Source: Brevibacterium sp. JSBI002 (lineage in GTDB: Bacteria; Actinomycetota; Actinomycetes; Actinomycetales; Brevibacteriaceae). From it: a stretch of DNA of 64,000 bases. The DNA lies in NCBI RefSeq assembly GCF_026013965.1, contig NZ_CP110341.1:2728001-2792000 (forward strand), written 5' to 3'. Positions 27,594 to 38,400 of the stretch are shown in pieces. The notes below the pieces were generated by a model. The model was given only the letters and a program-made list of their open reading frames with translations. It ran no database searches and was not told where the DNA came from. Both the position numbers and the translations under genes were made by a program. Within the stretch, counting starts at the first letter, position 1, and every line of letters begins with the position of its first letter.

Positions 27594-27599
27594 TAGTAT
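27594..27599 (+). promoter_or_regulatory. -10 element, probable leaderless promoter of the paralogous membrane-protein operon
   Basis: TAGTAT ends 6 nt before the GTG start at 27606, with no Shine-Dalgarno. The remainder of 27337-27593 holds an AT-rich patch (ATCAAATATACATG) and presumably the rplM promoter, but no clear elements. Confidence 0.5.
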
Positions 27600-27605
27600 T
27601 GATCT

Positions 27606-30074
27606 GTGCCGACTCACTCCAGCCTGCCCTTCCGACTTCCCGCATTGAGAATCCTGATGCTGGGTCTCCTGGTCGGGCTCCTGACGGCAGGCCTCGGACT
27701 CGGCCCCTCCTCCGCGTCGGCACCAACCGACGATCCGGCATCACCGGACAGTATGGCGTCGGACGACGGTTCGGCTGCGAACGCGAATGCGTCCTCCGGG
27801 CAATCCACTGACACCAGCAGGCCCCCGGCCGGGCAGACGGTCGTATTCGGCATTCCGGGTCTGACCATCGATGATATCGATCCTGAGCGCACTCCGAACC
27901 TCTTTCATCTGCTCTCCGAGGGCGCGGCCGCGAACCTCAACGTGCGCACGATCGGCTCGGCCACCTGCCCCGCTTCCGGTTGGCTGTCCTTCGGCGCGGG
28001 CGCCCGCGCACAGGCCGGACCCTCCCCCATCGCCGAGGATGCCGACCCCGATGACTCGGCCCGCTGCCCGACGATGATCGCCCCCGCCACGGACGGATCC
28101 GTGGACACCGAGGACGGGGCAGCCTCGGCGAAGGAGCCGGCGAACAGTGATGAAGCTCATGGCGGCGAATCCGCGGCCGGAACGACGACGGCTCGGATCG
28201 AGGGCTTCGATGCAGTCAAGGAGCCCAATATCGGCTCCGGCTACTCCGTCGACTACGGGATGCTCGCGCGCACTGTGACCGAAGCCGGCAAGGCGGTGCC
28301 CGCCGGCACCGACGCAACCGATGCGGACTCCCTGCTCGAACCCTGCGTCGCAGCCGAGGGGCCCGGCGCAGCTTATGCCGCCGCGGACGAAGACGGGGTG
28401 GTGACGAACTTCACGGACGATGCGACGGCCACGGACTGCCGCCTCGGCGTCGTCGATCTCGGCGCGATCGGCATCCGCTCCTGGCTGTTCGACCCGATCC
28501 CGAAGTACTCCTATACCGTTCCGCCGAACTACGACCGGGAGACCCGCGTCGCCGAAGCCGACCGCCGCCTCGGCGTGCGTCTGCAGGAAGTGCGGGAGAA
28601 CGCGAAGGACGGGGCAGCGGATCCGACGATCATCGTCGCCGGCCTCGGTGACAGTTCCGGACTGCCGCAGCTGCGCGCGTTCATCGCTTCCGGGCCCGGC
28701 TTCGAACCCGGGTCCCTGTCCTCGGCGACGACCCGCACCCCGGGGCTGCTGCAGATCACCGATCTGGCACCGGGCATCCTCGATGTCCTCGACATCGATT
28801 CCCCGCGCGCCGTCGGCCTCGACTCCGCCCCGACCGATGATGATCCGCAGCAGCGCATCGACGATCTCGTCGCCGAGGCGCAGAAATCGACGACGATCCA
28901 TCAGAATCTCTCGACGTTCTCCATCACCCTCGACGTCATCTTCTACGTCCTCTTCATCGCGTGCGCGGTCCTGCTCAACCGCTCAATCCTCGGTCGCCGA
29001 GGCGGCGCCACCCTAGCGCCCCACGTCCACCGATTCCTCGGCTGGGCGTCCTTGGGCGTCGCGGCCCTGCCGATGGGAGCGTTCCTCGCAGGGCTCTTTC
29101 CCTGGTCGAGAATGGCCGACCCCGGGCTCGGTCTGTTCCTCTCGGTCATCGGCACGGCCTCCGTTCTGTTCGCCTTCGCCCTCATCCCGCCATGGGGTCG
29201 GACCTGGCGAGGACGGGTCGGCGCCCTGACCGGGGCGAACCTGCTCATCCTCGCGATCGACCTGGCCACCGGGTCGCATCTGCAGGCGAACTCGCTGCTC
29301 GGCTACAACCCGATCGTCGGCGGTCGCTACTACGGACTCGGCAATCAGGGCGCGGCGATCTTCATCGTCAGCCTCTTCATCTTCCTTGGGCTGATGGTCT
29401 CGTGGCTGCGGGCGCGCGGGCACCGAAAGGCAGTGATCATCGTGCCGGTCGTCGTCGGACTGGCCGCCGTGTTCGTCTCCGGCAATCCCTCCTGGGGAGC
29501 GAAGTTCGGCGGTACGATCGCCATCCTCGCCGGCCTCATGGTCCTGCTGGCGCTGCTGTCGAAGATCCGACTGACTCTGGTGCGCCTCGCCCTCATCGGT
29601 CTGTCTTCGCTGGCCGTGCTCATCGGCATCGCCTTCCTCGACTGGCTGCGCCCTGCCGGAGCACGCTCTCATTTCGGCACCTTCTTCGACCAGATCGTCA
29701 CCGGTGAGGCCCTGCAGGTCGTCGGTCGCAAGCTCGGCGCGAACCTCCACATCATCCAGGTCAATCCGGCTCTGGCCATCGTCACTCCGCTTGCGGCCAT
29801 CGCGATCCTCATCTTCCTCCGCTACCTCCTCCACTTCCCCCACGTCCACGCCGGCAGCCGGACCGGACGTCTGGTCAACAGATGGCGCGGACGGCTCCCC
29901 CAGCTCTTCACCGATTCCGACCTGCACTATGGATTCCTGGCCGCTGCCACCGGGCTCGGCGTCGGGCTCGTGCTCACCGATTCCGGGGTCGCCGTGCCCT
30001 CGACCGGAGCCATGGTTCTGCTGCCCTTCCTGCTGGCGCTCAGTGCTGAACACGCCGAGGAGGCTCACCGATGA
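27606..30074 (+). CDS. Large membrane protein with phosphatase-like ectodomain, paralog 1
   Basis: Unrecognised 822-residue protein. A signal/anchor segment (residues ~14-40) precedes an acidic extracytoplasmic region of roughly 400 residues. A block of about ten membrane helices runs from near residue 440 (ITLDVIFYVLFIACAVLLN) to the end. The ectodomain has DPERTPNLFHLLSEGA, then CPASGWLSFGAGARA, and later TRTPGLLQITDLAPGI. This layout recalls alkaline-phosphatase-superfamily proteins, but the first metal-binding Asp position reads GIPG, so catalysis is doubtful. The membrane part has FLDWLRP and LTDSGVAVPSTGAM. It overlaps its paralog by 4 nt. A cell-envelope role is an inference. Confidence 0.85.
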   Translation: MPTHSSLPFRLPALRILMLGLLVGLLTAGLGLGPSSASAPTDDPASPDSMASDDGSAANANASSGQSTDTSRPPAGQTVVFGIPGLTIDDIDPERTPNLFHLLSEGAAANLNVRTIGSATCPASGWLSFGAGARAQAGPSPIAEDADPDDSARCPTMIAPATDGSVDTEDGAASAKEPANSDEAHGGESAAGTTTARIEGFDAVKEPNIGSGYSVDYGMLARTVTEAGKAVPAGTDATDADSLLEPCVAAEGPGAAYAAADEDGVVTNFTDDATATDCRLGVVDLGAIGIRSWLFDPIPKYSYTVPPNYDRETRVAEADRRLGVRLQEVRENAKDGAADPTIIVAGLGDSSGLPQLRAFIASGPGFEPGSLSSATTRTPGLLQITDLAPGILDVLDIDSPRAVGLDSAPTDDDPQQRIDDLVAEAQKSTTIHQNLSTFSITLDVIFYVLFIACAVLLNRSILGRRGGATLAPHVHRFLGWASLGVAALPMGAFLAGLFPWSRMADPGLGLFLSVIGTASVLFAFALIPPWGRTWRGRVGALTGANLLILAIDLATGSHLQANSLLGYNPIVGGRYYGLGNQGAAIFIVSLFIFLGLMVSWLRARGHRKAVIIVPVVVGLAAVFVSGNPSWGAKFGGTIAILAGLMVLLALLSKIRLTLVRLALIGLSSLAVLIGIAFLDWLRPAGARSHFGTFFDQIVTGEALQVVGRKLGANLHIIQVNPALAIVTPLAAIAILIFLRYLLHFPHVHAGSRTGRLVNRWRGRLPQLFTDSDLHYGFLAAATGLGVGLVLTDSGVAVPSTGAMVLLPFLLALSAEHAEEAHR

Positions 30075-32443
30075 GAGCCCCCGTGACCTCCTCCGCCGCC
30101 CGGGTTCTGCTCGGGATCCTGGCCATCGCCCTGTTCGTCCTCGGCCTGCCCCAAGCCGGGCAGGCGGCGCCAAGCGCGGGTCCGGGCGTGGTCCCGAGCG
30201 CAGGCCCGGCTGCGGCTGCGGGGGCGGTCACTGGCCCGGATACGAGCGCGTCGGCTCGGGCCTTCTCCCAGGCGGCAGGCGGGAACGGGGGCACGGCTCC
30301 GGCCACGGAAGACGCCGACGGTGGGGCCGCCTCGGCGAATCCTGGGGTCGTGTCGATCAACGTCTCCGGGTTCAGCTTCGAGGATCTCGATCCGCGCACC
30401 ACACCGAATCTGTGGGTGATGATGAAGGGCGGGCAGATCGGGACGATCACGCCTCGCAGCGTGCGCGCGACGAGCTGCCCGGTCGACGGCTGGTTGGGAC
30501 TCGGATCCGGGCGGCGCGCCGCCGACGAACCCCGCGATCAGTGCCGCGAACCGGCATCTCCCCTCGACGGCTGGGTCGCCGATTGGGACGTGTACGCGCA
30601 GGTGGCCCGCGGCGACAACTACGATGCCTCCCTCGGGGCGCTGGCCGAGGCAGTGCCCGATATCCGCGCCTTCGGCAACGGTGCCGCCATCGCCGCGGCC
30701 ACCCCAACCGGCCGCGTCGAGACCTGGTCGCCCGTCGGACCCGGCCTTGGAGCGGACGTCGCGAAATCGACCGCAGACGGCGAGCTTACGCTCGTCGATC
30801 TCGGCAATACCGCCGCCGACGGCTACTCGCTGAAGAATCTCGACGCTCAGGTCGGGGACATCCTCGAATCGACGGGATGGATGAGCGCGGATCAGCCGAA
30901 CCGCCTCGGCGAAGGACGCGTTCCCGTGGTGTTCTCCTCGATCGCCGACGGTACGCATGAAGGTTCGTCGATGCAGGCGACGATGATGGTCGCCCCGGGC
31001 GAGCAGGCGGGACTGCTCACCTCCTCGTCGACGCGTCAGCCGGGACTGGTGCAGGTGCCCGACCTGGCACCGACGCTCGTGGCACTGTCCGGTGCCGAGG
31101 AGATGGACAATGCGGCCGGGGCGCCGATGACCTCGGGGGCGCATGGGTCCGATTGGCATTCGCGCTATCAGGCAGTCCTCGATCGTCAGGTGGCGGTGAA
31201 GACGCAGAACGATCTGTCGACGTGGTTCTTCCCCGTGGTCGCCGTGCTCATGATCGGACTGTTGGCCTTGGCGTGGTTCATGCGGAAGAACCACCGGGAG
31301 CTCGTCCATTCCGGGGCGTACCGCCTCGGTGTCGTATTCGCGGCGATGCCGATCTCGACGTATCTGGTCAATACCGTGCCGTGGGAGCGGGGGACGAATC
31401 CGGACATCGCGATGCTCGGAGCCTTGGCCGGGTGGGCGCTGCTGCTCGGGGTGCTGGCGCTCCTCGGCCCCTGGCGGCGGCACAAGTTCGGGCCGGTGCT
31501 CTTCGTGTCCACCGTGACCGTCGCCGTGCTCGCCTACGACGTCGTCACCGGATCCCAGCTGCAGATGTCGACGCTCTTGGGTGAGCCCCTGCTCATCGCC
31601 TCCCGGTTCTACGGGATCGGGAACTCGGCACTGGCGCTGTACTGCTGTGCGCTGCTATTGGCGGTCGCAGGGTTCGCGTCTCTGGTGACCAAGCCGCTGC
31701 ATCGGGTCCTCATCGTCACCGTTCCCGTGCTCGCCTCCTGCGTCATCCTCGCAGCACCAGGTCTGGGCACGAAGTTCGGGTCCGTACCGACCCTCATCAT
31801 CGGAGTCGCCTACCTCGTTCTGTCCGCGGCGAGCATCCGGTTCTCGCTCAAACGGCTGGGGCTGACGGTGGGCATCGCCGGATTCGTCATGCTCACCGTG
31901 CTGTTCCTCGACTGGCTGCGCCCGGCCGATCAGCGCACGCACTTCGGACGGTTCTTCGACTCGATCATCAGCGGTCAGGCGCTCAGCGTTCTAGCCCGCA
32001 AGATCGGTATGAACATCGACATCCTCACCCAGTCGTGGATGACTCTGGTGCTGCCGCTGGTCATCATCGGTGTGTTCTGGATGGCCCTCGATCCAGCGCG
32101 CTTCAGACTGCACGGGCTTCAGGACACTTATCGGCGGATCCCGCTGTTGAGGGCGGCGATGATCAGCCTCGCGATCCTGCTGGGGGTCGGCACTCTCATC
32201 AACGACTCGGGCATCGTCGTGCCGGCCGTCGGCATCCTCTTCCTCGTCCCGGTGCTCACTCACCTCGAGACTTTCCGCGCCAGTCTCCCGCCGGTCCCGT
32301 CGAAGTCACCCACCTATGACGACGCCAGCGCCGATGCAGATGCGCCCCCTGCCGACTCCGATGCCGAGGCCGACGGTTCGGAGACAGTCACCGGCTCCGA
32401 CCCCGAGGCGACCGACGACTCCGGTGCATCGTCACGCCCCTGA
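30071..32443 (+). CDS. Large membrane protein with phosphatase-like ectodomain, paralog 2
   Basis: Unrecognised 790-residue protein with the same plan as its upstream neighbour. It has a signal peptide (VLLGILAIALFVLGLPQAG), an ectodomain to about residue 375, then about ten membrane helices and an acidic cytoplasmic tail of about 45 residues. Shared landmarks, with changes, are DPRTTPNLWVMM, CPVDGWLGLGSGRRA, TRQPGLVQVPDLAPTL, FLDWLRPADQRTHFG and INDSGIVVPAVG. The two must have arisen by tandem duplication and then diverged widely. The 4-nt overlap (ATGA) indicates coupled translation and probably joint function, perhaps as a heteromer. No catalytic residues can be named with confidence. Confidence 0.85.
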   Translation: MRAPVTSSAARVLLGILAIALFVLGLPQAGQAAPSAGPGVVPSAGPAAAAGAVTGPDTSASARAFSQAAGGNGGTAPATEDADGGAASANPGVVSINVSGFSFEDLDPRTTPNLWVMMKGGQIGTITPRSVRATSCPVDGWLGLGSGRRAADEPRDQCREPASPLDGWVADWDVYAQVARGDNYDASLGALAEAVPDIRAFGNGAAIAAATPTGRVETWSPVGPGLGADVAKSTADGELTLVDLGNTAADGYSLKNLDAQVGDILESTGWMSADQPNRLGEGRVPVVFSSIADGTHEGSSMQATMMVAPGEQAGLLTSSSTRQPGLVQVPDLAPTLVALSGAEEMDNAAGAPMTSGAHGSDWHSRYQAVLDRQVAVKTQNDLSTWFFPVVAVLMIGLLALAWFMRKNHRELVHSGAYRLGVVFAAMPISTYLVNTVPWERGTNPDIAMLGALAGWALLLGVLALLGPWRRHKFGPVLFVSTVTVAVLAYDVVTGSQLQMSTLLGEPLLIASRFYGIGNSALALYCCALLLAVAGFASLVTKPLHRVLIVTVPVLASCVILAAPGLGTKFGSVPTLIIGVAYLVLSAASIRFSLKRLGLTVGIAGFVMLTVLFLDWLRPADQRTHFGRFFDSIISGQALSVLARKIGMNIDILTQSWMTLVLPLVIIGVFWMALDPARFRLHGLQDTYRRIPLLRAAMISLAILLGVGTLINDSGIVVPAVGILFLVPVLTHLETFRASLPPVPSKSPTYDDASADADAPPADSDAEADGSETVTGSDPEATDDSGASSRP

Positions 32444-37218: not shown

Positions 37219-38400
37219 GTGAGAGTAGCGATCATTGCAGAATCCTTCCTCCCCAATATGAATGGGGTCACCCACTCACTCCTGCGGGTCCTCGACCATC
37301 TGGCCGACCGCGGCGACGAGGTCCTCGTCATCGCTCCGGGCACGCGCAGGGACGGTCCGAAGGAGGTCGCCGGCGCCCGCATCGTCCGGGTCCCCTCGAT
37401 CGCCTTGCCGAAGTATCGGCGCATCCGAGTCGCTCCCGGCGGCGTCACCCGGATCCGCCGGCTGCTGCAGCGCTTCGCCCCGGACGTCGTCCATCTGGCC
37501 AGCCCGTTCGTCCTCGGTTGGCGCGGGGTCCTCGCCGCCCAGGCACTCAATCTGCCGACCGTGGCGATCTACCAGACCGAGGTTCCCGCTTATGCCGCCC
37601 GGTACGGAATGCACGGCATCGAGGCCATGCTGTGGAACCACGTCCGCAATATCCACCAGCATTCCTCCCTGACGCTTGCCCCATCGTCGTACACGATCGA
37701 TCAGCTGCAGGGACTCGGTGTCGCCGAGGTGGCCCTGTGGGCCCGTGGGGTCGATTCCTCCCGCTTCGACCCGGGTCACCGTTCGGAGGCCTGGCGTCGA
37801 AGCGTTGCCCCGAATGGCGAGAAGATCATCGGCTTCGTCGGCAGGTTGGCCGCGGAGAAGCAGGTCGAAGACCTGGCCGCGCTCACCGATCTGCCCGGGG
37901 CGAAGGTCGTCATCGTCGGCGACGGTCCCTGGCGGACACGTCTGCAGCGGCTGCTGCCGGAGGCTCACTTCACCGGGTTCCTCGGCGGGGATGCCCTGGC
38001 ACAGGCGGTGGCGAGCTTCGACCTCATGGTCGCCCCTGGTGAGCTCGAGACCTTCTGTCAGACGATTCAGGAGGCCATGGCCTCCGAGGTGCCGGTCATC
38101 GCTCCCGCCCGAGGCGGCCCGCTCGACCTCGTCGACTCCTCACGCACCGGGTGGCTCTACACCCCGAAGGACCTCGGTGCCATGCGAGCGCACGCGGCAG
38201 ACCTCCTCGGCGACGAGGCGAAACGGCGGGCCTTCGGAGTCGCCGGTCGTGAGCAGGTGCAGGCCAGGAGCTGGAAGAGCGTGTGCTCACAGCTCGTCGG
38301 CCACTATTCGCGGGCGATCGAGAATCCCGCCCCGCAGGTGCTCGGCCGCGGATTCAGCTCGATGGTCAGCTCCGGACTGGAGAATCCACTCCCCTACTGA
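37219..38400 (+). CDS. mgtA: GT4 glycosyltransferase, MgtA-like alpha-mannosyltransferase
   Basis: A 393-residue GT-B glycosyltransferase. The N-terminal MRVAIIAESFLPNMNGVTHS is nearly the signature of actinobacterial GDP-mannose-dependent mannosyltransferases (MgtA/PimB group), which build lipomannan and related glycolipids at the membrane. The donor-binding C-terminal lobe has GFVGRLAAEKQVEDL, VIVGDGPWRTRL, and the EX7E-type ETFCQTIQEAMASEVP. The start is GTG. There is no Shine-Dalgarno, and a weak TTAGCT lies 7 nt upstream. The gene symbol follows family resemblance and was not tested. Confidence 0.85.
   Translation: MRVAIIAESFLPNMNGVTHSLLRVLDHLADRGDEVLVIAPGTRRDGPKEVAGARIVRVPSIALPKYRRIRVAPGGVTRIRRLLQRFAPDVVHLASPFVLGWRGVLAAQALNLPTVAIYQTEVPAYAARYGMHGIEAMLWNHVRNIHQHSSLTLAPSSYTIDQLQGLGVAEVALWARGVDSSRFDPGHRSEAWRRSVAPNGEKIIGFVGRLAAEKQVEDLAALTDLPGAKVVIVGDGPWRTRLQRLLPEAHFTGFLGGDALAQAVASFDLMVAPGELETFCQTIQEAMASEVPVIAPARGGPLDLVDSSRTGWLYTPKDLGAMRAHAADLLGDEAKRRAFGVAGREQVQARSWKSVCSQLVGHYSRAIENPAPQVLGRGFSSMVSSGLENPLPY

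Follow-up and report, generated by a model that had tools for sequence, protein, structure and literature searches.

What do two large, overlapping membrane-protein genes of Brevibacterium sp. JSBI002 do, and why do they come as a pair? Both lie on the + strand of the window, the 64,000-nucleotide stretch of DNA that we analyzed. Neither product received an assignment over cut-off from Pfam or NCBIfam, and PDB sequence searches with the single A and B sequences retrieved no relative.

Genes A and B are diverged paralogs with a common plan

Gene A (27606-30074, + strand; 822 amino acids) starts with GTG and gene B (30071-32443, + strand; 790 amino acids) with ATG. The stop of A and the start of B overlap by four bases, ATGA (30071-30074, +), and third-position GC is high in both genes (0.83 in A, 0.84 in B), indicating coding composition. 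Searching with gene B retrieved the membrane half of gene A from the same genome with an E value of 6e-54. These results bear out the first-pass annotation of the window, which had proposed two overlapping genes encoding paralogs; the motifs it had named (its ectodomain landmarks, FLDWLRPA and DSGxxVP) are all present in the translations. Six bases upstream of the GTG of gene A lies the sequence TAGTAT (27594-27599). No ribosome-binding site is evident there by eye, and the gene A transcript is possibly leaderless.

AlphaFold2 models of both proteins show a signal helix, an alpha/beta ectodomain and a helical membrane half. In gene A, the signal/anchor helix comprises residues 12-29 (27639-27692, +), the ectodomain about residues 74-409 (27825-28832, +) and the polytopic membrane half residues 414-821 (28845-30068, +). 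Gene B follows the same plan, with a signal/anchor helix at residues 8-25 (30092-30145, +), an ectodomain at 89-361 (30335-31153, +), a membrane half at 362-734 (31154-32272, +) and a cytoplasmic tail at 735-790 (32273-32440, +), which is mostly of low confidence (pLDDT <50 at 751-777 and 779-786). The shared plan had been anticipated from the sequence; in place of the figure of about ten membrane helices proposed at the time, we assigned 11 in B. Likewise, the proposed ectodomain length of 350-400 residues is too high for B, whose folded part spans ~270 residues, with ~335 in A.

No support for an explanation of A and B by their immediate neighbors

A and B belong to a widespread family of membrane proteins, for which we use the working name F0. 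In samples that overlap in part, F0 was detected in 32 of the 39 relatives, and the order contributed 152 positive genomes out of 248, the class 61 out of 148 and the phylum 61 out of 198. The family is thus not peculiar to the A/B system.

The first reading of the locus had sought its function in the window neighborhood, which includes an MgtA-like GT4 gene (37219-38400). Five Brevibacterium genomes lack A and B (G004, G009, G014, G287 and G356), and rplM, the nucleotidase gene and truA are kept in all five and the mgtA-like gene in four, so this explanation is not supported. The same observation weighs against the idea that A and B are lipomannan enzymes partnering the MgtA-like GT4. That idea draws on the window neighborhood and on a GT87 gene that adjoins F0 at three (L071, L078 and L108) of the 12 order-level loci, and we regard it as most improbable.

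Four of the five genomes are small (G004, G009, G287 and G356; in G014, F0 is absent and the mgtA-like gene is missing at that locus). These four, which retain rplM, the nucleotidase gene, truA and the mgtA-like gene, lack not only F0 but also two further genes, encoding a divergent MraY/WecA-like PGT and a second MurJ-type flippase (MurJ2); when compared with MurJ2, their top-scoring MurJ reaches an E value of 5e-20 at best. The four absences may represent one single loss.

F0 accompanies a PGT-MurJ2 gene set

We compared 24 F0 loci from outside the order-level set (L110-L127 and L210-L215). Six of them (L210-L215) had been chosen because they carry the PGT and F0 on one contig, and the other 18 were among 20 regions taken from F0-positive genomes. 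With this selection, the PGT is found in 19 of 24 loci, MurJ2 in 17, steA in 17 and pyrG in 18, while the cassette is absent from four (L121, L125, L126 and L127). A representative order is recN, steA, steB, PGT, MurJ2, GT4, F0, pyrG, nudix, xerD (L211), with variants elsewhere. Pfam assigns RecN, SteA, MctB/SteB, MurJ and GT4 in the cassette loci. Of 12 genomes outside the order, ten combine a MurJ at the F0 locus with another full-length MurJ elsewhere; in the other two (G130 and G057), the F0 locus is without MurJ. No MurJ, SteA or PyrG neighbor was found in the 12 clustered order-level F0 loci (L069-L078, L108 and L109).

In the window genome, F0 and the cassette are unlinked. A cassette locus without F0, containing the PGT, MurJ2 and two GT4 genes, is located at 2.24 Mb, ~0.5 Mb from A and B at 2.76 Mb. 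Its PGT gene fills the gap between steB and MurJ2 (L202:9202-10065, corresponding to 2243201-2244064 of contig C1). The protein falls below the cut-off of PF00953 (E 0.0011) and has an NLLDLRPGR-like stretch; an Asp pair, among other residues, shows no variation across the 20 sequences aligned. Relatives of this PGT accompany F0 in many Actinomycetota.

The association is also seen at the level of gene content. In the 248 genomes of the order, 142 have both F0 and the PGT, 10 only F0, 3 only the PGT and 93 neither; for F0 and MurJ2 (threshold E at most 1e-40), the counts are 139, 13, 3 and 93. Two weak PGT matches (G290 and G441) were dropped, and the Fisher statistics on the co-occurrence counts are uncorrected for shared ancestry. 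Eight of the ten genomes with F0 but no PGT consist of 320 or more contigs. Two near-complete genomes (G266 and G413) are real exceptions, with F0 present and both PGT and MurJ2 absent, and two others (G268 and G379) show the reverse, PGT and MurJ2 without detected F0. In the class sample, which comprises 138 genomes after removal of ten from the same order, 53 have both F0 and the PGT, 3 only F0, 6 only the PGT and 76 neither. Among the six genomes with the PGT alone, four (G143, G164, G559 and G568) come from a single family, f17, with short or partial matches.

The frequent presence of steA or steB near F0 outside the order could also suggest that F0 acts with SteA and SteB in cell separation and that the glycan genes are incidental neighbors. 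A function of SteA/SteB in cell separation of C. glutamicum is described in a preprint (PMC12338722). Presence and absence of F0 track the PGT and MurJ2, which weakens this explanation indirectly, and we consider it improbable. Taken together, the co-occurrence and the gene content of F0 loci support the link to a lipid-linked envelope polymer that had been suspected from the window, and F0 is very probably a member of a PGT-GT4-MurJ2 glycan pathway.

The ectodomain is a putative pseudo-phosphatase

The ectodomains of A and B adopt the ALP alpha/beta fold, and the best Foldseek match of the gene B model is the periplasmic domain of YejM. The ALP-superfamily resemblance claimed from sequence motifs is therefore confirmed by the models, and no unrelated fold emerged.

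NPP-type active sites use His ligands, and an active ALP enzyme is expected to conserve a two-metal site with Asp and His ligands. We examined this site in 89 F0 units, a set without incomplete units, duplicate loci (L180, L182 and L185) and the Brevibacterium loci L128-L134; Brevibacterium is represented by A and B of ten genomes, the window and nine loci. With the ligands mapped by sequence alignment and NPP chemistry rather than by superposed coordinates, 75 of 89 units carry P, S, G or A where the first metal Asp would be expected and only 5 carry D, in agreement with its replacement in A and B as originally annotated. The His ligands are not conserved either, the top His frequency of any ectodomain column being 0.20. 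An acid is retained at position 243 (73 D, 12 E), position 293 is D in 59 of 89 units, and Ser or Thr is often present near 134-135 around the nucleophile region, where the exact position of the nucleophile is uncertain. The degenerate site is a trait of the family and not only of the A/B pair, and by this alignment the ectodomain is a putative pseudo-enzyme without conserved metal ligands. We also aligned ectodomain profiles to profiles of PF01663 proteins from relatives; at probabilities of 0.5% and 0.3%, these comparisons were uninformative.

These data bear on whether F0 proteins could be active ALP-superfamily phosphotransferases of the LtaS, EptA or GPI-ethanolamine-phosphate type, decorating a wall polymer via the ectodomain. 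The fold, the acid at 243 and the Ser/Thr residues would be in line with such an activity, as would the order of ectodomain first and many C-terminal helices, which is also found in PIG-N and PIG-O. YejM itself is called a metalloenzyme in the title of one paper (PMC7576196). Given the rarity of both the first metal Asp and ectodomain His, however, an active phosphotransferase is very improbable.

The membrane half carries an invariant core in its outer loops

In contrast to the ectodomain metal site, the membrane half contains invariant residues. Numbering follows gene B, and the topology is our own assignment (N-terminal helix in, ectodomain out, 11 helices). When conservation was scored on 74 of the 89 units, outer loops reached 2.35 bits, compared with 1.41 in inner loops and 1.19 in helices (outer vs. 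inner loops, p 3e-7). R512, D614, H624 and D712 are invariant (89/89 units), and K644 is present in 85 of 89. Three of these residues, together with R643, lie in the conserved outer loop 614-656 (31910-32038, +); R512 lies in a region of low model confidence (pLDDT <50 at residues 500-515). The equivalents in gene A are R574, D679, H689 and D792, so both copies retain the invariant core. At other positions the membrane halves vary: Asn711 is replaced by Thr in A, and position 568 is Lys in all 20 Brevibacterium A and B rows and Asp in 62 of 89 units.

Whole-model searches, whose match lists were filled by the ectodomain, gave no confident PDB fold match for the membrane half. A Pfam scan of 30 F0 members at E 0.1 returned no DUF3413, PigN-type or Wzy_C (PF04932) match.

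The Asp and His residues form a D-x9-H motif in both proteins (D614-x9-H624 in B, D679-x9-H689 in A). A conserved D-X9-H at the membrane interface is also described for PbgA, whose ALP-superfamily domain is without the usual catalytic residues (PMC7018646); mutation of the pair had only a small effect there, which means that catalysis does not follow from the presence of such a pair. Together with the Foldseek match to YejM, this parallel raises the alternative that F0 proteins are PbgA/YejM-like sensors or lipid carriers, in which the pseudo-ALP domain and the D/H pair of the membrane half would hold a lipid or a lipid-linked glycan for its regulation or transport, without transfer chemistry. 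F0 could be a regulator or transporter of this kind. Nevertheless, the membrane domain of PbgA is DUF3413 and is arranged in another order, some distant F0 members and a Clostridioides protein (see below) have fewer residues between D and H, and F0 tracks a cassette for synthesis and flipping. On balance, we find a sensor or carrier function unlikely.

F0 pairs arose repeatedly

In all 38 Brevibacterium loci, A and B are adjacent and in constant order; all were fetched with gene B as query, so that a locus with only A would have escaped this search. No locus with just one of the two genes was seen among those examined. A further Brevibacterium genome, G342, has its match to gene B divided between two open frames (G342:C1:1593526-1595591).

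Outside Brevibacterium, single F0 copies are common. Tandem pairs are also present in loci of families f11, f16 and f55, and in family f8 four of seven loci (L072, L166, L167 and L168) contain two complete units within one open frame of 1453-1514 codons; of the remaining three, L179 carries a second unit that is incomplete, and L173 and L174 contain a single unit each. In a careful tree of 71 of the 89 units, from which four long rows and 14 near-duplicates were omitted, Brevibacterium A and B cluster together (bootstrap 81, SH-aLRT 94). AU tests rejected one clade of Brevibacterium A with the first f8 unit (p 0.0048) or with the second (p 0.0021). A clade of A with the first f16 copy was not rejected (p 0.256), and we therefore claim just two secure independent pairings. 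Judged from this phylogeny, pairing or fusion of F0 evolved at least twice.

We read this pattern as a putative ancestral homodimer that would have become either a heterodimer or a fused pseudo-dimer, and in Brevibacterium A and B probably form a heterodimer. The obligate heteromer postulated for the two genes agrees with their joint retention in Brevibacterium loci and needs to be qualified by the common single copies elsewhere, which the first-pass annotation had listed as evidence against it.

A homolog from Clostridioides difficile (L216:8092-10269), annotated as "hypothetical" or "membrane protein", matches the family profile with an E value of 9e-90 and retains R, D, H and D. It adjoins disA, downstream of radA-disA-PIN/TRAM. 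F0 is thus not confined to Actinomycetota; a distant F0 query also matches one Acetoanaerobium record.

A candidate outer-face step in a lipid-linked glycan pathway

We propose the following model. The MraY/WecA-like PGT would start a glycan on a lipid carrier, one or two GT4 enzymes would lengthen it, and MurJ2 would turn it outward. F0 would receive the flipped glycan on the outside of the cytoplasmic membrane and most likely transfer or join it, the outer step being transfer, polymerization or attachment. The working site would lie in the membrane half and consist of the invariant R, D, H and D of its outer loops together with the nearly invariant K, perhaps with a catalytic role, and the phosphatase-fold ectodomain may serve as a non-catalytic docking or lid domain that docks or shields the substrate. 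A and B would then be two diverged halves of one dimer.

The gene set provides enzymes for start and extension and a flippase. A Wzy_C match was found in 4 of 19 relatives and none in the window genome. With its conserved outer-face residues, F0 is a natural candidate for the outer step. Context, co-occurrence and conservation make F0 a candidate for consuming the flipped lipid-linked glycan; whether it does so as an enzyme we consider evenly balanced. The complete model, with A and B as diverged dimer halves and F0 acting in a dedicated lipid-linked glycan pathway, has in our view about an even chance of being correct. Somewhat more tentatively, F0 may constitute a new, dimeric class of outer-face glycan transferases or ligases, topped by an inactive phosphatase-like domain, that performs the final step of a PGT-GT4-MurJ2 envelope glycan pathway widespread in Actinomycetota, with a clostridial relative and an A:B form in Brevibacterium.

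Should these genes form a second lipid-linked glycan pathway that has a MurJ of its own, this would account for the two full-length MurJ proteins in many of these genomes and bring to light an additional envelope polymer and, possibly, a drug target. After PbgA, the ectodomain would provide the second example of a phosphatase fold put to use as an outer domain with no enzymatic activity, and the A/B pair would offer a clean system for studying the repeated evolution of heterodimers from homodimers. For a family this common in the order and accompanied by the PGT-MurJ2 set, we found neither a family model over cut-off nor a described function. The literature searched, mostly without subscription papers, contained no account of F0 or the cassette. 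MglA, a MurG substitute (PMC8092295), is a different gene.

Comparison with known systems

Like F0, PbgA/YejM combines a catalytically depleted ALP-fold periplasmic domain with a membrane domain bearing a conserved Asp-His pair at the outer interface (PMC7018646). The domain order is different, since the membrane half of F0 is C-terminal, and the shared D-X9-H is best regarded as a resemblance.

The GPI ethanolamine-phosphate transferases PIG-N/O/G share with F0 the order of an ALP-fold ectodomain followed by many C-terminal membrane helices but differ from it in that F0 has no PigN-type match and an unconserved metal site. LtaS/EptA phosphotransferases have an N-terminal membrane domain and an intact metal site, and F0 has neither. 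From the nucleotide pyrophosphatase/phosphodiesterase and iPGM fold, F0 is set apart by metal ligands that are not conserved.

Wzx/Wzy-type pathways and WaaL ligases follow the same logic as the F0 set: a PGT, glycosyltransferases and a flippase, followed by a membrane enzyme at the outer face. The F0 set differs in using a MurJ-type flippase and in F0 itself, which is without a Wzy_C match and carries a pseudo-ALP domain. The logic of the pathway is therefore of a known kind, whereas its outer component F0 and the pairing of this component seem new relative to the literature searched.
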